From Gemmatimonadetes bacterium T265 (GTDB lineage Bacteria; Gemmatimonadota; Gemmatimonadetes; Gemmatimonadales; Gemmatimonadaceae), in contig BPUI01000001.1 of NCBI GenBank assembly GCA_019973575.1, positions 2,182,342 to 2,246,341 of the forward strand: DNA of 64,000 nt, written 5' to 3'. Under the pieces are notes generated by a model, which was not told where the DNA came from, did not search any database, and saw only the letters and a program-made list of their open reading frames with translations. The translations under genes were made by a program, and so were the position numbers. Every line of letters starts with the position of its first letter. Position 1 is the first letter of the stretch. This document shows, piece after piece, positions 13,609 through 50,749 of the stretch.

Positions 13609-14535
13609 TTACGGCGTGCTCGGGCGGGCGTTCTGACGGTCCGGTGCGAGGGCGTGATGCGCGGGTTGTTCGCGCCAGCCGACGAACGCGTCCCACCACT
13701 CCGGCGGCGTGCGCACGCCGAGCATCGCGTGTTCGAACGTCGCGAGCGCGAGGACCCCGGCGAGGAGTGCGAGGCCGGTGCGGCGGGCGGACGCGGGATC
13801 CGCGCGCCGCGCCCGGACGGCCAGCGCGGCCGCCGCCGCACCGAGCGCGACCACGCTCGCAGCGAGCAGCGGCGAATTGCGCGCCGGCCCGAAGAACTGA
13901 CGGAAGTGGGCGAGGTACGCCGGCAGGTACGCCGCGCCGGGACTCGCGACGCCGAGGAACACGTTGAGCTTCGCGAGCTCGTGGGCCGCCCAGAGCGTGG
14001 CGAACGCGATTGGCCCGTAGCGGCCCGCGGCCGACGTTTGCGTTAGGCCCCGGCCGCGCGGCCCGCGCGCCGCCCGGACGGCGACGAGCAGCAGCGCCGC
14101 AGCGAGCAGGCTGCTGTACGCGGTGGCCGCGACGGCGGCGGCCGCGCGCGCGAGCGACGGGGCGCCGGCCCCGGCGTCGGCCGGGGCCACGGTGCCTAAC
14201 GGCGCCGGCCCGACCACCCACCCGCCGTAGAACGTCGCCGACACGCACACCCAGAGCAGCGCGCCGCCGAGCACGGCCCGCGCGGCGGCGCCCGCCCCGG
14301 CGCCCCGCGCCCCGGCGCGGACGCACGCGGCGCCCGCGACGGCCGCGGCGACGGCGAGGCCGAGCGCGAGCAGCCGGGTCGCGTCGCTGCGTTCGAGGGC
14401 GAGGAGGAGGCCCGTCGCGCCGTACCAGAAGGCGAGCACGCCCGCCGCGGCGGCGAGCGCGCGTCGCCACCGGCCGGTCCCTCGCCGCCGCGCACCGGGC
14501 ACGCGGGCGAGCGACGCCTCTGCCATGGCGCTCAT
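13609..14535 (-). CDS. puhE: PuhE, photosynthetic complex assembly protein (DUF3623)
   Basis: A 308-residue integral membrane protein with about eight hydrophobic segments. The diagnostic stretch is ATLWAAHELAKLNVFLGVASP followed by AYLPAYLAHFRQFF, matching the LNVFLGV...LP..L.....F core of PuhE. In Rhodobacter, PuhE affects the amount of LH1-RC complex; the mechanism is not settled. ATG 14535 overlaps the bchD stop (ATGA), making it third in a bchI-bchD-puhE operon. In purple bacteria puhE usually lies by puhC or acsF, so this position is a rearrangement. The C-terminus has a short polar tail. Confidence 0.8.
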   Translation of the reverse strand: MSAMAEASLARVPGARRRGTGRWRRALAAAAGVLAFWYGATGLLLALERSDATRLLALGLAVAAAVAGAACVRAGARGAGAGAAARAVLGGALLWVCVSATFYGGWVVGPAPLGTVAPADAGAGAPSLARAAAAVAATAYSSLLAAALLLVAVRAARGPRGRGLTQTSAAGRYGPIAFATLWAAHELAKLNVFLGVASPGAAYLPAYLAHFRQFFGPARNSPLLAASVVALGAAAAALAVRARRADPASARRTGLALLAGVLALATFEHAMLGVRTPPEWWDAFVGWREQPAHHALAPDRQNARPSTP

Positions 14536-16400
14536 GCGCGCGGGACGGCGCGGCGCGCGGGCGCGTCAGCGAGCGCGTCGCGCACGACGCCGTGCAGCGC
14601 GTGCGCGGACGCGTGCGGGAGCGCGACGTAGCGTCCCCGCGCCGCCGCGGCGAGGTCGCGCGCTTCGGCGCCGCCGCGCACCGCGGTGTCGACGACGACG
14701 GCGAGGCCGCGCGCCGCCCCGAGCGTGGCGGCGAGCGCACGCGCCGCGCGCTCGGCGTCGGCGCGCGCGCGCTCGCGGCCGGGCGCGCCGTCGAGGGCGA
14801 CGTTGGCGCGGCCGTCGGTGAGCAGCACGACGGCGGGGCGCGCGCCCGCGCGGGCGGCGCCGCGCGCGAGGTCGGCGGCGGCGACGAGCGCCGCGGCGAG
14901 CGGGGTGCCGCCGCCGGCCGGCAGCGCGCTCACGACGCGGCGCGCCCGCGCGAGCGCGCGCGTCGGCGGCAGCAGGACGCTCGCCGCGCCCCCCCGGAAC
15001 GCGACGAGCGCGACCTGGTCCCGCCGCGCGTAGCTCTCCGCCAGCAGCAACTCGGCCGCCCCCTTTGCTTCGGCGAGTCGGCCGAGCGCGGCCGACCCCG
15101 ACGCGTCGACGACGACGACGGTCGTCGTGCCTAACGCGCGCCGGCAGCGCTCGATGCGCAGGTCGCCGAGGCGGACGGCGAGGGAGCCGCCCGGCGTGCG
15201 GCCGCGTGCGCCCTGCCACGGCGCCGCGGCGCGGAGCGTCTCGACGAGGTCGAGACGGCTGCCCCCGCCGGGGCGCCCCGGCCGCATGCCGACGCGGCGG
15301 CCGCGCCGGTCGTCGGCGGACCGTCCGGCGCGGGCCGCGCGCCCCGACGCGCCGCGCGCGGTGCTCGCGCGGGCAGCCCCGCCGGCGCCGGCCGCGTCCA
15401 GCAGATCGGGTGGCAGCGCGGCCCGGGCCGCGGCGACGAGCAGTTCGCGCGTCGCGAGTTCATCCGCCGCCCGTGGCACGTCCTCGCCCGACGACCCGTT
15501 CGCGGACTCGCGCTTGGGGGACGCCGTGGGATTCGGGGGCGGCGCGTCGGCAGGGCCGACGTCGTCGGGTGGTGCGGCTGCGGGGCGCGGGTCCGGTTCG
15601 GGCTCCGCCTCCGGCCGCGACGGCTCGTCGGCCGGGACGCGCACCGCCCGCGGCGCGAGCACGAGCTGCACGGCGGCCGCGAGGTCGTCCTCGTCGGGTG
15701 CCGCACGCTCGGCGGCGCGCGCGAGCGCGCGGGCCACCCGCATCGCGAACACCATCGCGCGCGTCGAGACGATCCCGAACGCGTCGGCGACGTCGCACAG
15801 CGCCGCTACGGCAGCCCGGGCGGGCGCGCGCGGCGCGTCAGCGTCCGCTGTGGGTGCGTCACCTTCGTAGGCTTCCCATACGCCTTCCACGGCCGGCGCA
15901 TACCCGGCCGGCAACCACACGTGGAGCCCGAGTCGCTCGGTGAGGAGCGACGGCACCGCGGCGCGCTCCTCGTCGCCGCAGACGACGGCGACGACCGCGA
16001 GCCGACCGCCCTCGATCGCGTCGGTGACGCGCGCGAGCGTGGCCGTGCGCGCGGCCGCCGCGCGTGGCAGGACGAGCACGCCGCCGTCCGCCTCCGCCAG
16101 CAGTCCGCGTGTTTCCACGCGCGCGCCGGCCGCGAGCGTGGCGACGACGTCGAGCCCGCCCACGAGTCGGTCGTCGCTCACCGCGCTCGGGACGACACGC
16201 CACGGCGCGAGCGGGCGGCGCGCGGCGAGCGCCGCTCGTAACGCCGCGACCCAGCGCTCGCCCTCTTCGGCCCCGGGCGCGACGACCAGGGCTCCGCCCA
16301 GTGCCGCCGCGCCGTCGTCCGCGAGGAGCGCGATCGCGAGGTCGGGGAGCGTCACGCCGGAAGCCGTCACGCCGTCGGCCGTCACACCACGAGCGGTCAC
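14532..16400 (-). CDS. bchD: magnesium chelatase subunit D
   Basis: BchD forms the AAA+ ring with BchI that drives Mg insertion into protoporphyrin IX by BchH. I start it at GTG 16400, which overlaps the bchI stop (GTGA), giving 622 residues. The N-terminal AAA-like domain lacks a proper Walker A, as is usual for BchD. A Pro/Glu-rich linker (residues ~255-295) follows. The C-terminal von Willebrand A domain has its MIDAS start VVVVDASGSAAL and a LLTDGRANV strand. The opening residues repeat GVTA/GVTAS three times, a small in-frame tandem repeat. Confidence 0.93.
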   Translation of the reverse strand: MTARGVTADGVTASGVTLPDLAIALLADDGAAALGGALVVAPGAEEGERWVAALRAALAARRPLAPWRVVPSAVSDDRLVGGLDVVATLAAGARVETRGLLAEADGGVLVLPRAAAARTATLARVTDAIEGGRLAVVAVVCGDEERAAVPSLLTERLGLHVWLPAGYAPAVEGVWEAYEGDAPTADADAPRAPARAAVAALCDVADAFGIVSTRAMVFAMRVARALARAAERAAPDEDDLAAAVQLVLAPRAVRVPADEPSRPEAEPEPDPRPAAAPPDDVGPADAPPPNPTASPKRESANGSSGEDVPRAADELATRELLVAAARAALPPDLLDAAGAGGAARASTARGASGRAARAGRSADDRRGRRVGMRPGRPGGGSRLDLVETLRAAAPWQGARGRTPGGSLAVRLGDLRIERCRRALGTTTVVVVDASGSAALGRLAEAKGAAELLLAESYARRDQVALVAFRGGAASVLLPPTRALARARRVVSALPAGGGTPLAAALVAAADLARGAARAGARPAVVLLTDGRANVALDGAPGRERARADAERAARALAATLGAARGLAVVVDTAVRGGAEARDLAAAARGRYVALPHASAHALHGVVRDALADAPARRAVPRA

Positions 16401-17479
16401 ACCACGGCCGCGCCGAACAGCTCGCCCACGGCCCGCTCGACGCGCGCGCTCGAGCCCGCGTCGTCGAGCGGGTCGCGCCGCAGGCGGTGGCGGAGCGCCA
16501 TCGACGCCACGCGGCGGAGGTGCCCGTCGTCGACGACGGACGCGCCGTCGTACGCCGCCGTCGCCCGCGCGGCACGGAGCAGCGTGAGCTCGCCGCGGAC
16601 GCCGTCGGTGCCGAGCCGGGCGCAGAGCTCCGCGCCGCGGCGGAGGACGGCGTGCGGCACCGCGACGGCGCCGATCCGCGAGCGCGCGTCCGTGACGCGG
16701 CGTCGCACCGTGGCTTCCGCGCGCGCCCATTGCCGCGCGAAGCCCTCCGGGTCACGGTCGAACGCGTCGCGCCGCAGCACCGCCTCGACGCGCGCGTCCG
16801 GATCCGCCGGCGTCGTCACCTCGACCGAGACGCCGAAGCGGTCGAGGAGCTGGGGGCGCAGGTCGCCCTCTTCCGGGTTGCCGCTGCCGACGAGGACGAA
16901 GCGCGCGGGGTGGCGCACCGAGAGCCCCTCGCGCTCGACGACGTTCTCGCCCGACTGCGAGACGTCGAGCAAGAGGTCGACGAGGTGGTCCTCGAGCAGG
17001 TTCACCTCGTCGACGTAGAGGAACCCGCGGTGCGCGCGCGCGAGGAGGCCGGGCTCGTAGGCCTTCTCGCCGGTGCGGAGCGCGCGCTCGAGGTCGAGGG
17101 CGCCGACGACGCGGTCCTCGGTGGCGCCGAGTGGAAGGTCGACGACCGGGACCGGGGCGCGGCGCGCGCGAGCGCGGGCGCCGGCGTGCTCGCGCGCGTG
17201 ACACTCGTCGCAGCGGGCGCCGTTCGCGGTCGGGTCGCAGCCGTAGCGGCAGGCCGCGTCGACGACGAGCGGGGGGAGCACGCCGGCGAGCGCGCGCACC
17301 GCGGTGCTCTTGCCCGTGCCGCGGTGTCCCTGGACGAGCACCCCGCCGATGCCCGGGTCGACGGCCGCGATGAGGAGCGCCGCCTTCATCTCGTCCTGCC
17401 CGACGATCGCGGTGAACGGAAAACGCGCGTGCACGGGGCGGGGGGCTTCGGGGTGAGGCAGGTCGGCGCGCGTCGCCAC
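16397..17479 (-). CDS. bchI: magnesium chelatase ATPase subunit I
   Basis: A 360-residue AAA+ ATPase, full length for the family. Walker A is GHRGTGKST (residues ~50-58) and Walker B is FLYVDEVNLL. A Cys cluster (CRYGCDP, CDEC) lies between them, as in other BchI. It hydrolyses ATP in the hexameric ring that works on BchD and BchH at the first committed step of the pathway. It is first in the leftward unit, transcribed from a promoter at 17519-17547 that overlaps a PpsR-type palindrome. The start at ATG 17479 leaves a 40-base leader. Confidence 0.96.
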   Translation of the reverse strand: MATRADLPHPEAPRPVHARFPFTAIVGQDEMKAALLIAAVDPGIGGVLVQGHRGTGKSTAVRALAGVLPPLVVDAACRYGCDPTANGARCDECHAREHAGARARARRAPVPVVDLPLGATEDRVVGALDLERALRTGEKAYEPGLLARAHRGFLYVDEVNLLEDHLVDLLLDVSQSGENVVEREGLSVRHPARFVLVGSGNPEEGDLRPQLLDRFGVSVEVTTPADPDARVEAVLRRDAFDRDPEGFARQWARAEATVRRRVTDARSRIGAVAVPHAVLRRGAELCARLGTDGVRGELTLLRAARATAAYDGASVVDDGHLRRVASMALRHRLRRDPLDDAGSSARVERAVGELFGAAVV

Positions 17480-17518
17480 GCGCCCGCGATGGATCCCGAT
17501 CGGGATCCCGCTCGCGCT

Positions 17519-17547
17519 ACAGTAGGGGGCGGAACGGGATGTCGCAA
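17519..17547 (-). promoter_or_regulatory. sigma-70-like promoter for bchI-bchD-puhE
   Basis: Read on the minus strand: TTGCGA (-35, 17547-17542), 17-base spacer, TACTGT (-10, 17524-17519). It mirrors the divergent crtF promoter. The -35 lies inside the TGT-N12-ACA palindrome at 17540-17557, a typical repressor position. Confidence 0.7.
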
Positions 17548-17582
17548 TCCGTTGACACTCGCTTTGTCAACGACTCTTGACA
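17540..17582. promoter_or_regulatory. pair of PpsR/CrtJ-type operators (TGT-N12-ACA)
   Basis: Two perfect matches to the PpsR consensus are visible: 17540-17557 (TGTCGCAATCCGTTGACA) and 17565-17582 (TGTCAACGACTCTTGACA). They are 7 bases apart, and each covers the -35 of one of the divergent promoters. Paired sites fit the known cooperative binding of PpsR/CrtJ tetramers. Expected result: repression of bchID-puhE and crtF-bchCXYZ under oxygen. Confidence 0.8.
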
Positions 17583-17605
17583 GTTGTCGGACCCGCCCCT
17601 ACTAT
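17577..17605 (+). promoter_or_regulatory. sigma-70-like promoter for crtF-bchCXYZ
   Basis: TTGACA (17577-17582), exactly 17 bases, TACTAT (17600-17605), a near-consensus promoter. Its -35 is the right arm of the operator at 17565-17582. Confidence 0.75.
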
Positions 17606-17659
17606 CGCGCTCGCCGGATCCCCGGGGCGCGTGCGCCGCGACGGGACCACCGGTCACCC

Positions 17660-18955
17660 GTGCACGCCGTCGTCCCCGGCGTTCACGAGCGCCCTCGTGC
17701 CGGAGCGACCCCCTTGACGCTCGCCGGGCCCTTGCCGTCTTCCGCGAACCCGCGCGCCGAACGCGTGGGCGGCGCGCGCGCCGCGCCCGAAGCGCCCGAG
17801 CCCGGCCCGGCGCCCGCGCGCGCGGCGGCCACGTGGGCCGAGCGGCTGGAGGACCGGGCGCTTGGCGCGCGGGACCGGCTGTACGCGAGCGCGACGTTCC
17901 AGCGGTGGGCGGCGCGAGTGCCCGTGGTGCGCGGCATCGCGCGGCGGCGCTCGCGCGCGGTGTTCGACCTCGTCGCGGGGTTCGCGTACACGCAGACGGT
18001 CGCCGCGTGCGTGCAGTGCGGGCTGCTGACCCTGGTCTCCGATGGGCCGGTCCGGGAGGACGCGTTGCTCGAGCGGCTCGAGCTGCCGACCGACGGCGCG
18101 CGGCGGCTGCTCGCCGCGGCCGCCGCGCTCGGCCTCGTCGAGCGGCGCACGGGCGGGCGGTGGGGCCTCGGCGCGACGGGCGGCCCGCTGCTCGCGAGCC
18201 CTGGGCTCGCGCAGCTGGTCGAGCACAACGCCCTGCTCTACGACGACCTGCGCGACCCGCTCGCGCTCCTCCGCCGCGCGCCGGGTGACGACCAGACCGC
18301 GCTCGCCGCCTACTGGCCCTACACCGACGCGCCCCGCCGCGCGCGACTCGGCGCCGCGGACGTGTCCGGCTACTCGGCGCTCATGGCGGCCACCGTGGCC
18401 CCGCTCTCCGACGAACTGCTCGACGCGGTGCCGCTCCGCGACCGGCGCGCGCTGCTCGACGTCGGCGGCGGCGACGGCGTGTTCGTGCTCGCCGCCGCGC
18501 GGCGGCACCCGCGGCTCGCCTGCACGCTGTTCGACCTCGCCCCGGTCGCGGCGCGGGCGCGGCGGCGGGTGGCGGAGGCGGGGCAGGGCGCCCGCGTGCA
18601 GGTCGTCGGCGGCGACTTCCAGCGTGATGCCTTGCCGGCGGGGGCCGACGTCGCGACGCTCGTCCGCGTCTGCCTCGACCACGACGACGCGACCGTGAGC
18701 GCCCTGCTCCGCCGCGTGCGCGCGTCGCTCGCGCCTCATAGCATGGTCGTCATCGCGGAGCCGCTTGCCGGCGTGCGCGGGGCGGAGGCGGTGGGCGACG
18801 TGTACTTCGCCTACTACCTGCGCGCGATGGGGCGCGGGCGCGCCCGCACGGCGGCCGAGTTCCGCGCGCTGCTCGAGGGCGCGGGCTTCCGGCGCGTGCG
18901 CGTGCGGCCGACGCGGTACCCGGTCGTCGCGGGCGTGATCACGGGGGAGCTGTGA
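17660..18955 (+). CDS. crtF: CrtF, demethylspheroidene-type O-methyltransferase
   Basis: CrtF methylates the tertiary hydroxyl of acyclic carotenoids. I start at GTG 17660 (431 residues); TTG 17714, with GGAG nine bases upstream, is an alternative. Conserved features are YASATFQRWAARVPVVRGIARRR, the N-terminal dimerisation helices, LLDVGGGDGVFVLAAARRHP (SAM motif I), GGDFQRDALPAGADV, and a DHDDATVSALL motif near the catalytic region. The related C-20 methyltransferase BchU is the main alternative, but the order crtF-bchCXYZ is canonical for crtF. It is first in the rightward operon, under PpsR-type control. Confidence 0.8.
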   Translation: MHAVVPGVHERPRAGATPLTLAGPLPSSANPRAERVGGARAAPEAPEPGPAPARAAATWAERLEDRALGARDRLYASATFQRWAARVPVVRGIARRRSRAVFDLVAGFAYTQTVAACVQCGLLTLVSDGPVREDALLERLELPTDGARRLLAAAAALGLVERRTGGRWGLGATGGPLLASPGLAQLVEHNALLYDDLRDPLALLRRAPGDDQTALAAYWPYTDAPRRARLGAADVSGYSALMAATVAPLSDELLDAVPLRDRRALLDVGGGDGVFVLAAARRHPRLACTLFDLAPVAARARRRVAEAGQGARVQVVGGDFQRDALPAGADVATLVRVCLDHDDATVSALLRRVRASLAPHSMVVIAEPLAGVRGAEAVGDVYFAYYLRAMGRGRARTAAEFRALLEGAGFRRVRVRPTRYPVVAGVITGEL

Positions 18956-19968
18956 CGGCGGCGACGACGGACGTCCCGCGCGCGGCGGCGTACGACGCCC
19001 GCACTCCCGCCGTCCCGTTCGAGGCGCTCGCCGTGGTCCTCGAGGCGCCCGGGACGCTCTCGCTCCGCCCGGTGGCGCACCGCGCGCCGGGGGACGCCGA
19101 CGCGGTCGTCGAGGTCGAGTGGACGGGGATCAGCGCCGGCACCGAGCGGCTGTTCTGGCGGGGGACGATGCCCCAGTTCCCCGGCCTGCGGTACCCGCTG
19201 ATCCCCGGGTACGAGACCGTCGGGCGCGTCGTGTGGGCCGGGCCGGGGTCGGGGCGCGCGTTAGGCGACCGGGTCTTCGTCCCCGGCGCATACAGCGCCA
19301 TCGAGGTCGCCAACCTGTTCGGCGGGGCGTGCCGTCGGCTCGTCGCGCCCGGCGCGCGCCTGGTGGCGCTCGACGCCGAGCGCGGCGCGGAGGCCATCCT
19401 CCTGGCGCTCGCGGCGACGGCGCTGCACGCGGTGCGCGGCGGCGCGGCGCTCCCCGACCTCATCGTCGGGCACGGCACGCTGGGCCGGCTCGCCGCGCGC
19501 CTCGTCGTCGCGTTAGGCGGCGCGCCGCCGACGGTGTGGGAGGTCGACGAGGCGCGCCGCGGCGGCGCGGCCGGCTACCCCGTCCTCACCTCCGACGCGG
19601 ACGCGCGGCGCGACTACGCGTGCGTCTGCGAGCTGAGCGGGTCGGGCGCGCTGCTCGACGCGCTGATCGGGCGGCTCGCGAAGGGGGGCGAGGTCGTGCT
19701 CGCCGGCTTCTACGCGGCGCCGCTCACCTTCGAGTACGTCCCCGCGTTCATGCGCGAGGCGCGGGTGCGCGTCGCGGCGGGGTGGGCGCCGGAGGACCTG
19801 GCCGACGCGCGCGCGCTCGTCGCGCGCGGCGCGCTCTCGCTCGGCGGGATCGCCACGCACGCGGCCGACGTGTCGTTAGGCACCGCGGCGGTGCGCGACG
19901 CGTACGCGACGGCGTTCGACGACCCCGCCTGCATCAAGATGATCCTCGACTGGAGGTCCTGCCCGTGA
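18952..19968 (+). CDS. bchC: BchC, 3-hydroxyethyl (bacterio)chlorophyllide a dehydrogenase
   Basis: BchC oxidises the C-3 hydroxyethyl group to acetyl, late in bacteriochlorophyllide a synthesis. The 338-residue product is an MDR-type dehydrogenase without the structural zinc Cys cluster: VEWTGISAGTERLFWRGTMP at residues ~48-67, PLIPGYETVGRVV, and a Rossmann part (LIVGHGTLGRLAARLVVALGG). GTG 18952 overlaps the crtF stop and its own stop overlaps bchX, so crtF-bchC-bchX are translationally coupled. Confidence 0.92.
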   Translation: MTAATTDVPRAAAYDARTPAVPFEALAVVLEAPGTLSLRPVAHRAPGDADAVVEVEWTGISAGTERLFWRGTMPQFPGLRYPLIPGYETVGRVVWAGPGSGRALGDRVFVPGAYSAIEVANLFGGACRRLVAPGARLVALDAERGAEAILLALAATALHAVRGGAALPDLIVGHGTLGRLAARLVVALGGAPPTVWEVDEARRGGAAGYPVLTSDADARRDYACVCELSGSGALLDALIGRLAKGGEVVLAGFYAAPLTFEYVPAFMREARVRVAAGWAPEDLADARALVARGALSLGGIATHAADVSLGTAAVRDAYATAFDDPACIKMILDWRSCP

Positions 19969-48162: not shown

Positions 48163-48191
48163 ACAGTAGGGGTGACACCACGGACTGTCAA
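48163..48191 (-). promoter_or_regulatory. sigma-70-like promoter for the bchF superoperon
   Basis: On the minus strand: TTGACA (48191-48186), 17 bases, TACTGT (48168-48163). The -10 is identical to that of the bchI promoter. The -35 is one arm of the operator at 48186-48203. It should drive bchFNBHLM through puhC. Confidence 0.75.
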
Positions 48192-48219
48192 GCCAGGTTT
48201 ACGTCAGCCCGTATTGACA
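48186..48219. promoter_or_regulatory. two abutting PpsR/CrtJ-like operators
   Basis: 48186-48203 (TGT-N12-ACG) and 48202-48219 (CGT-N12-ACA) each match TGT-N12-ACA with one change, at the shared centre where they overlap by two bases. Each covers the -35 of one of the two divergent promoters. A further palindrome, TGACA-N8-TGTCA, spans 48173-48190. Autoregulation of aerR-ppsR is the expected outcome. Confidence 0.65.
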
Positions 48220-48278: not shown

Positions 48279-49124
48279 GTGGCTAAGCGTGAGTTGCCGG
48301 CGTGGGACGCGGGGGGGCCCGTGGGTCACGGGGAGTTACGCTGGACCGAACCGCAGGCGGCGCCACCGCCGGCCGCGCCGCGCGCGCCGAACCCGCGCCC
48401 CGCCGCGTACCTCGGCGACGCCGACCGCCGGCCCGACGGACACGCCCGGCGCGTGCGCGACGGCGACCGCGCCCGGTTCCTCGAGCTCGTCCTCGGCCCC
48501 GACGACGCCGCGTCGACGGCCTTCGTCGACGTGCTGCTGCGACGCGGCGTCGAGGTCGGGGCCATCTACCTCGACCTGCTCGGGCCGACCGCCGTGACGC
48601 TCGGCGAGATGTGGGTCGAGGACACGTGCGACTTCTTCGACGTGACGGTGGCCGTCGGCCGGCTCCAGCGCGCCGTGCGCGAGCTCGGGCAGGGCTTCGT
48701 CATGTCCGGCGACCCGGCGCACCCCGACGCGGCCGGGGCCGGGCGCGTGCTCCTCTCCTGCGTGCCGGGCGACCAGCATACGTTAGGGATGTACATGGTC
48801 GCCGAATTCCTCTTACGCGACGGGTGGGGCGTGCGCGTCGGCACGCCGGCCACCGCCGACGAGCTCGGCGCGCTGCTGCGCGACGAGTGGTTCGACGTGG
48901 TCGGCTTCTCGGCCGCGTGCGACGCGCGGTTGCTCGCACTCCGGCACGAAGTCGCCGCCGTGCGCCGGCACTCCCGCAACCCCCACGTGCGCGTCCTGGT
49001 CGGTGGACGGATCTTCGTCGAGCATCCGGAGCTCGCCGCGCGCGTCGGCGCCGACGGATTCGCCACCTCGGCCGCGGACGCCGCGGGCCGCGCGCGCGCG
49101 CTCCTCGGCACGCGTCCCGACTAA
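48279..49124 (+). CDS. aerR: AerR/PpaA-type B12-binding antirepressor
   Basis: 281 residues from GTG 48279. After a Pro/Ala-rich leader comes a helical cap (FLELVLGPDDAASTAFVDVLLRRGVEVGAIYLDLLGPTAVTLGEMWVED), then a B12-binding Rossmann domain: LLSCVPGDQHTLGMYMVAEFLLRDGWGV, with the His of GDQHTLG as likely cobalt ligand, then VVGFSAACDARLLAL and VLVGGRIFVEHPEL. In Rhodobacter AerR binds adenosylcobalamin in a light-dependent way and modifies CrtJ/PpsR binding. It lies 13 bases before ppsR. Confidence 0.88.
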   Translation: MAKRELPAWDAGGPVGHGELRWTEPQAAPPPAAPRAPNPRPAAYLGDADRRPDGHARRVRDGDRARFLELVLGPDDAASTAFVDVLLRRGVEVGAIYLDLLGPTAVTLGEMWVEDTCDFFDVTVAVGRLQRAVRELGQGFVMSGDPAHPDAAGAGRVLLSCVPGDQHTLGMYMVAEFLLRDGWGVRVGTPATADELGALLRDEWFDVVGFSAACDARLLALRHEVAAVRRHSRNPHVRVLVGGRIFVEHPELAARVGADGFATSAADAAGRARALLGTRPD

Positions 49125-49137
49125 CGGCCACGCGTCC

Positions 49138-50640
49138 GTGCCGCCGACTGCGAGCAGCGCCGCCGCCGCCGTGCGCAACGGCCGACCGTTCGGTCTGCCC
49201 GGCCGCGCCGCGCTCACCCGCCTCGGCGGCGACGGCGCGGCCGCCCTGCTCAGCGCGCACGACCTCGCCGTCGTGGTCGACGCGGCCGGGATCGTCGTCG
49301 ACGTCGCGGCGGGCGTCGGCACCGCCGCGCGCGCCGCGGCGGCCGACGCGGGATACGCGGACGCGGTCGAGGGGTGGGTCGGCCGCCGGTGGGTCGACAC
49401 CGTGACGTCCGAGTCGCGGGGCAAGATCGAGCTGCTGCTGCGTGAGGCGGCCCCCGCGGGGCTCACGCCGCGGCGCCAGGTCAACCACGTCGCCCCCGAC
49501 GGCCACGACTTCCCGGTCGCGTACACGGCGGTCCGCCTGTCCGACGGCGGCGTCGTGGCCGCGGGGCGCGACATGCGCGCGACGGCGGCGCTGCAGCAGC
49601 GCCTCGTCGAAACGCAGCAGGCGCTCGAGCGCGACTACTGGCAGCTGCGGCACGTGCAGACCCGCTACCGGCTGCTCTTCGAGCGCTCGGCCGAGGCGGT
49701 GCTCGTCGTCGACGCGGCGACGCGCAAGGTGGTCGACGCCAACCCGGCGGCGCGCGACGTCTTCGGGCCGAATGCGGACCGTCTCGTCGGGCGCGCGTTC
49801 CCGCCGGAGATGGCCGCGCCGTCCCGGCAGGCGCTCGACGACCTGCTCGTCGCGACGCGTCTCGACGCGCGCGGCGACGACATCGAGGTCGCGCTCGCCG
49901 ACGGGCGCCGGCTGCGCGCGGCCGCGTCGTGCCTGCGGCAGGACGCGCAAACCCTGTTCCTCGTGCGCTTCGGCGAGGCGGAGGGCGCGACCCCGCGCGA
50001 GGCGGGCGGCCGTTGGGCGGGCCAGTCGCTCGACGCGCTCCTCGACGCCGCGCCCGACGCGTTCGTCGTCACCGACGCCGACGGCCAGGTGATCGTCGCC
50101 AACCGCGCCTTTCTCGATCTGGCGCAACTCTCCGACGCCGCGCAGGCGGAAGGGCATTCGCTCGCCGAGTGGGTCGGGCGGCCGGGCGCGGACCTCCCGG
50201 TGCTGCTGACGATGCTGCGGCAGCACGGCGTCCTGCGCCTCGTCGGCACCTCGGTGCGGGGCGAGCACGGCACGGCGACCGACGTCGAGCTGTCGGCCGT
50301 GCGTGCGCCCGACGGCGCGTCGGCCGGGCCGGCGGCGATGGCGTGGACGATCCGCGACGTCGGGCGGCGCGTGGGCGGCGGGACCGGCGGGGCGCGCGAC
50401 CTCACGCGCGCGGTCGAGCAGCTGACGGGACTCGTCGGCAAGGTCTCGCTCCCCGACCTCGTCCGCGACACGATCGAGATGGTCGAGCGCCACTTCATCG
50501 AGGCGGCGCTCGACCTCACCCGCGACAACCGGACCGCGGCGGCCGAGGTGCTGGGGCTGTCGCGCCAGTCGCTCTACCTCAAGTTGCGACGACATCGACT
50601 GCTGCCGGCGGAGCCCGCTGACGCCGACTCGAGCGGCTGA
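49138..50640 (+). CDS. ppsR: PpsR/CrtJ photosynthesis repressor
   Basis: 500 residues from GTG 49138. It has an N-terminal domain followed by PAS domains (YRLLFERSAEAVLVVDAATRKVVDANPAARDVFG and LDALLDAAPDAFVVTDADGQVIVANRAFLDL), a Q-linker helix (QQRLVETQQALERDYWQLR) and a C-terminal Fis-type HTH (ALDLTRDNRTAAAEVLGLSRQSLYLKLRRHRLL). It represses bch, crt and puf genes aerobically in purple bacteria. The only Cys is in RAAASCLRQD; the HTH cysteine used for redox sensing in Rhodobacter is absent. Matching operators occur at three places in the window. Confidence 0.92.
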   Translation: MPPTASSAAAAVRNGRPFGLPGRAALTRLGGDGAAALLSAHDLAVVVDAAGIVVDVAAGVGTAARAAAADAGYADAVEGWVGRRWVDTVTSESRGKIELLLREAAPAGLTPRRQVNHVAPDGHDFPVAYTAVRLSDGGVVAAGRDMRATAALQQRLVETQQALERDYWQLRHVQTRYRLLFERSAEAVLVVDAATRKVVDANPAARDVFGPNADRLVGRAFPPEMAAPSRQALDDLLVATRLDARGDDIEVALADGRRLRAAASCLRQDAQTLFLVRFGEAEGATPREAGGRWAGQSLDALLDAAPDAFVVTDADGQVIVANRAFLDLAQLSDAAQAEGHSLAEWVGRPGADLPVLLTMLRQHGVLRLVGTSVRGEHGTATDVELSAVRAPDGASAGPAAMAWTIRDVGRRVGGGTGGARDLTRAVEQLTGLVGKVSLPDLVRDTIEMVERHFIEAALDLTRDNRTAAAEVLGLSRQSLYLKLRRHRLLPAEPADADSSG

Positions 50641-50731: not shown

Positions 50732-50749
50732 TGTCAACCGAACATGACA
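50732..50749. promoter_or_regulatory. PpsR/CrtJ-type operator at bchG
   Basis: TGTCAACCGAACATGACA is a perfect TGT-N12-ACA. It is followed by a second palindrome, TGACATCTGGTAGTGTCA (50745-50762). The annotated ATG of bchG (50744) lies inside the operator. No strong -35/-10 pair is visible; TTGCCC-N17-TGACAT is a weak candidate. Confidence 0.7.

Follow-up and report, generated by a model that had tools for sequence, protein, structure and literature searches.

A predicted double PpsR operator between divergent bchI and crtF promoters in Gemmatimonadaceae

The photosynthesis genes of Gemmatimonadota came from purple bacteria. The published view holds that most of their regulation has disappeared and that the cluster has a single PpsR site. 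The region between bchI and crtF of Gemmatimonadetes bacterium T265 raises a testable question: which signal controls PpsR after transfer? It lies in a 64,000 nt stretch of DNA which was analysed as a whole and is referred to as the window. We consider it likely that positions 17519-17605 of the window represent a double PpsR operator common to two divergent photosynthesis promoters, which one tetramer would shut in both directions in response to a non-redox signal. Instead of being lost, the operator code is widely kept across the family and extended to an apparently lineage-specific divergent promoter pair, and the presumed oxygen-sensing residue of the regulator is gone. The feature in T265 is real, conserved and belongs to a known class, the paired PpsR operators; it combines a divergent layout that seems lineage-specific with a regulator that has lost the usual redox residue.

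The gene bchI (Mg-chelatase subunit I; 16397-17479, minus strand; TIGR02030, 497 bits, above cut-off) is the first of a bchI-bchD-puhE run. Its start codon is uncertain (GTG at 17479 or an internal GTG). The gene bchD (14532-16730, minus strand) matches models of Mg-chelatase subunit D best, with scores that stay below the cut-offs. On the plus strand the frame 16064-18955 ends in a methyltransferase matching a BchU/CrtF-type model, and relatives in the same divergent position are 45-50% identical, the closest 64% (tblastn). Based on the methyltransferase match and the divergent homologues, the gene is assigned as crtF-type methyltransferase (17714-18955, tentative TTG start). It is followed by bchC (18952-19968, plus strand; TIGR01202, 381 bits, above cut-off). 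Promoters were assigned by sequence only. For crtF they consist of TTGACA (-35, 17577-17582) and TACTAT (-10, 17600-17605) on the plus strand, for bchI of TTGCGA (-35, 17542-17547, read 17547-17542) and TACTGT (-10, 17519-17524) on the minus strand, both with a spacer of 17 bp. The bchI leader additionally contains, between -10 and start codon, a perfect 18-bp palindrome (GGATCCCGATCGGGATCC, 17491-17508), which is absent from those bchI leaders of relatives that were looked at. Rfam and tRNA scans were empty.

Between the two genes there are two predicted PpsR operators of the form TGT-N12-ACA. The one on the bchI side (TGTCGCAATCCGTTGACA, 17540-17557) overlaps the bchI -35, and the right half of the one on the crtF side (TGTCAACGACTCTTGACA, 17565-17582) is the crtF -35. 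They are separated by 7 bp with centres 25 bp apart. The initial annotation had placed both sites correctly to the base, and its statement that each covers the -35 of one divergent promoter with a 17-bp spacer is confirmed in the sequence. Its description as perfect palindromes holds for the six fixed letters but not for the remainder, as only 4 of 9 (site 17540) and 6 of 9 (site 17565) position pairs are self-complementary.

The six-letter motif TGT-N12-ACA by itself is neither rare nor enriched. It occurs 5 times in the window versus 1.9 expected (at least 5 in 4 of 100 shuffles) and 306 times in the genome (5.63 Mb) versus 286 for the reversed control. Hence the count was not used as evidence alone. 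Two sites in one short intergenic stretch do exceed chance (~0.0004 per 250 bp in shuffled bchI upstream regions of the family). Far stronger evidence than letter counting comes from conservation and from a matrix which was built from 13 sites identified by PpsR ChIP-seq in R. sphaeroides (PMC4344238, Table 2). The five best 18-mers of the 64 kb start at 17565 (23.3 bits), 50732 (23.1), 48186 (18.2), 48202 (16.6) and 17540 (15.2), followed by a sixth with 10.7. The crtF-side operator thus ranks first, and the bchI-side operator, the weaker member of the pair, ranks fifth. All five are located at promoters of photosynthesis-cluster genes: two belong to bchI/crtF, two to bchF/aerR and one to bchG. 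Among 200 Markov windows the top score overall was 19.9 and no third-ranking score was above 13.6, as compared to 15.2 for the fifth of the window. A narrow sequence pattern matches only the crtF-side site across the genome.

Conservation was evaluated in 41 Gemmatimonadaceae genomes with readable upstream sequence, including that of T265. In all 41, crtF is divergent from bchI. A perfect crtF-side site is present in 37, most commonly as TGTCAAGAAAAGTGTACA; the script returned 38 perfect TGTCA-N10-ACA first sites, but the one at locus L114 is the bchI-side site, the crtF-side site being TGTCAAGAGACCCAGACG there. The bchI-side site is perfect in about 20 of the 41 genomes, mostly TGTCANNNNNTTGCGACA, and imperfect in about half; read on the bchI strand it appears in relatives as TGTCANNNNATTGCGACA, and many of the others are one letter off (GCGACG/GCGACC). 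Where both sides are recognisable, the centre distance is either 35 bp or within 24-27 bp, 25 and 26 being the usual values, and never 28-34 bp; spacing values of 20 in a few rows are meaningless, resulting from an unrecognisable second site. The crtF promoter (TTGACA-N17-TANNNT) is found in 30 of 41 loci, always with a spacer of 17, and the bchI promoter (TTGCGA-N16..18-TANNNT) likewise in 30, with a spacer of exactly 17 in 29. The shuffled rate for these patterns is 0.0005 or less. The conservation of TTGACA and TTGCGA is partly owed to the promoters themselves, and since the genomes are related the counts are not independent events. The operator pair is kept in relatives carrying ppsR, with exceptions in the genera g4 and g19, where sites are altered or lost. 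Loss or rearrangement of sites in some genera is seen at L173, L174 and L176. In a subclade of the group with 35 bp between the centres (L130, L132, L133, L135-L137 and L183) both PpsR sites are intact and no crtF -10 is recognisable at 16-18 bp.

Where does this layout come from? We rejected that the pair was inherited ready-made from purple bacteria, as the 400 bp upstream of bchI contain two tandem-spaced perfect sites in none of 66 proteobacterial loci. Several of these loci have one site near bchI, and one (L038) has three scattered sites, 43 and 81 bp apart. Proteobacterial crtF, where found, lies downstream of bchI on the same strand. Given that the 66 regions lack a close pair, the arrangement seems lineage-specific: judged by sequence, the divergent bchI/crtF operator looks like an arrangement of the Gemmatimonadaceae composed of purple-bacterial letters.

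Paired operators have been described for other systems. At R. capsulatus bchC, CrtJ binds cooperatively to palindromes at -47/-30 and -21/-4, whose centres are 26 bp apart, and blocks the promoter (PMC5362033). Similar to T265 there are two TGT-N12-ACA sites, one of them over the -35. In contrast, both serve the -35 and -10 of one promoter, whereas in T265 each covers the -35 of a separate divergent promoter. Moreover the gap is 8 bp in R. capsulatus, compared to 7 bp in T265 and 17 bp in part of the Gemmatimonadaceae. Gaps of 7-8 bp are reported for C. litoralis (PMC2654016). The crtI and pucB pairs of Rubrivivax gelatinosus, which belong to the same class, have gaps of 8 versus 9 bp, and spacing affects cooperativity and redox response (PMC4452267); it varies by one bp there but by about one helical turn in Gemmatimonadaceae. 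The bchF/ppaA region of D. shibae resembles T265 in that its photosynthesis promoters diverge and have elements covered by PpsR sites, and a bchF-lacZ fusion is derepressed upon operator mutation (PMC10890935). It differs by other genes, four predicted sites and a PpsR that is light-controlled through LdaP and PpaA (PMC10890935). For Gemmatimonas phototrophica a PpsR site was predicted (Prodoric) at bchID-puhE, the single one in the whole PGC (PMC11406998). The operon is that of the T265 pair, and the locus almost certainly corresponds as well.

The protein presumed to bind the operators is encoded in the same cluster, at a distance of 32 kb. The ppsR gene (49138-50640, plus strand, frame 49003-50640) passes the curated TIGR02040 cut-off with 428 bits, and its product contains a C-terminal Fis-type HTH (RHFIEAALDLTRDNRTAAAEVLGLSRQSLYLKLRRH). 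The HTH core (NRTAAAEVLGLSRQSLYLKLRRH) retains the recognition-helix motif SRQSLY common to proteobacterial PpsR. It is the only PpsR of the genome above the family cut-off. Most of the Gemmatimonadaceae genomes have retained ppsR alongside the PGC with an unchanged HTH core.

In Rhodobacter, redox control is mediated by a cysteine in the HTH (C420 of CrtJ, C424 of PpsR; PMC5362033, PMC3949515, PMC4452267). This residue, identified by its position and as the sole cysteine there, is present in the five sequences from Thiodictyon, Novosphingobium, Sulfitobacter, Roseobacter and Roseinatronobacter (CIEAA or CIETA). In the window PpsR and every aligned PpsR of Gemmatimonadaceae the position is occupied by phenylalanine (RHFIEAAL). 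The PAS1 cysteine (RsPpsR C251) aligns with valine in the window PpsR (4hh2 alignment), which accordingly carries neither of the two cysteines expected for a redox sensor of the Rhodobacter type. A different cysteine (ASASCxRQ) is found in PpsR of most relatives. All matches of a PDB search were PAS-domain constructs of RsPpsR that lack the HTH, hence the DNA contacts are covered by no solved structure. The HTH cysteine is also missing from some working proteobacterial PpsR, e.g. R. palustris PpsR2 as cited in PMC4452267, and its loss is therefore no proof of redox blindness. In G. phototrophica, oxygen does not repress the PGC, strong light lowers its expression only transiently (about 2-fold), and ppsR transcription is unchanged (PMC11406998). 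The absent oxygen repression is as would be predicted for a PpsR without the cysteine, a fit in a relative that leaves the cause unproven.

A natural candidate for the input to PpsR is the aerR/ppaA-type gene (48279-49124, plus strand), which encodes a B12-binding protein (PF02310). Its place, upstream of ppsR with bchF on the other side, matches that in purple bacteria. The initial annotation considered the purple-bacterial PpsR code intact. This is appropriate for the DNA code, as seen from the ChIP matrix and SRQSLY, but is not supported for regulation, considering the exchange of the HTH cysteine for phenylalanine, a layout that is not purple-bacterial and a relative without oxygen repression (PMC11406998). 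The DNA code is kept; the redox input probably is not.

For the locus we infer binding by PpsR, bridging by a tetramer, repression and AerR as input. Each 18-bp site would take up one PpsR dimer, and with the -35 inside each site bound PpsR would block RNA polymerase both ways. The centre distance of 25 bp would allow a single PpsR tetramer to grip both sites cooperatively, such that bchI-bchD-puhE and crtF-bchC(XYZ) would be switched together. That a tetramer may hold both sites and close bchI and crtF is proposed by analogy with R. capsulatus bchC and D. shibae bchF. A pair of tetramers closing both directions had been suggested initially; the operators do cover both -35 elements, but a pair is not needed, as one tetramer (two dimers) can fill both sites. 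Release of PpsR would probably occur via the neighbouring AerR-type B12 protein, responding to light or cobalamin, and not via oxidation of an HTH cysteine.

The sites might alternatively be relict operators, PpsR scarcely regulating bchI and crtF and conservation reflecting promoters with -35 elements that resemble PpsR half-sites. Indeed TTGACA doubles as -35 and PpsR half-site, a subclade retains the -35 TTGCGA while its bchI-side sites have degenerated to ACG/ACC, and PGC expression in G. phototrophica is almost unresponsive to oxygen or light (PMC11406998). However, half-sites that are not part of the promoters are conserved as well (the inner TGTACA/TTGACA on the crtF side, the outer TGTCA on the bchI side). 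They keep the N12 spacing and centre distances of 25/26 or 35, and the retention of ppsR with the PGC likewise argues against relicts, an explanation we regard as decidedly unlikely.

Also unlikely in our opinion is that PpsR chiefly serves at these promoters as an activator that depends on AerR, or as a dual regulator, and not as a plain repressor blocking the -35. Such a role would suit the position of the AerR-type gene immediately 5' of ppsR; AerR-CrtJ of R. capsulatus extends binding and relieves repression (PMC5362033), and PpsR of Rvi. gelatinosus is reported to be both repressor and activator in work cited by PMC4452267. Yet both sites lie over -35 elements, where a bound protein normally obstructs polymerase, and no upstream activating site was seen. 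The genome also encodes further Fis-type HTH proteins, and one of them or another TGT/ACA-binding regulator could use the sites instead of PpsR. This is hardly probable, given the single PpsR above the family cut-off, the exclusive location of the top five ChIP-matrix matches at photosynthesis-cluster promoters and the presence of PpsR in most PGC-bearing relatives. A double operator closed by one PpsR tetramer remains the preferred reading.

The remaining top matches are located at bchG and between bchF and aerR. The predicted operator at bchG (TGTCAACCGAACATGACA, 50732-50749, rank 2) has similar counterparts 5' of bchG in most relatives. Since it covers the most upstream ATG of the bchG frame (50744), the true start of bchG probably lies further downstream. 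The other two matches form a predicted fused double operator of 34 bp (48186-48219, TGT-N12-ACGT-N12-ACA), i.e. two operators overlapping by two bases, whose outer half-sites fall on -35-like hexamers of bchF and aerR. All ten of its fixed letters are present in 24 of 27 family loci spanning bchF/aerR; further variants comprise one with one mismatch and one that is 1 bp longer. When one mismatch is tolerated, 38 of 46 bchI-carrying proteobacterial genomes contain the pattern, usually once (control 0-1). Thiodictyon has it and, with one mismatch, Novosphingobium. Most of the 30 proteobacterial loci fetched for this pattern sit between bchF and aerR; L188, L215 and L216 display it with no bchF/aerR shown. 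On the three Rhodobacterales plasmids examined the bchF/aerR sites are separate, hence the fused form may easily be missed in classic models.

In both phyla, centre distances between paired matrix hits cluster at 16, 25-26 and 35-36 bp, which can be interpreted as about 1.5, 2.5 and 3.5 helical turns; 16 bp would correspond to the fused operator and 25-26 bp to the classic tandem. Shuffled sequence yields no pairs at the same threshold, and a looser threshold adds scattered distances. A close-pair class of 13 bp was not counted, as it seems to stem from half-sites shared within pairs of 26 bp. Within Proteobacteria only a few loci, from Bradyrhizobium and allied records, show the 35-36 bp class. 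Such pairs lie downstream of bchO at L049, L071, L072, L093 and L102, apparently independent of the Gemmatimonas case. The ladder offers a testable rule for the grip of the PpsR tetramer on DNA. A text search of the open literature found neither a helical rule nor overlapping palindromes described, which is not proof of absence. As a tentative picture, for which we see just short of an even prospect, the ladder would reflect a fixed rotational grip of the tetramer and the fused bchF/aerR operator would be an ancient and widely retained form; Gemmatimonadaceae would have kept the code and built a new operator at bchI/crtF, read by a PpsR without the HTH redox cysteine.

A relative with a complete genome (G079) shows matrix matches at bchG, bchF/aerR and bchI/crtF as well as at two further places in the cluster. 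In contrast to the one site published for the PGC of G. phototrophica, it has two perfect sites at bchI/crtF in addition to the fused operator and the bchG site, hence the published number probably reflects a strict scan. Further matrix matches of G079 (L168-L170) comprise a pair 26 bp apart (C1:1587711 and 1587737) and an unpaired match at C1:1593844.
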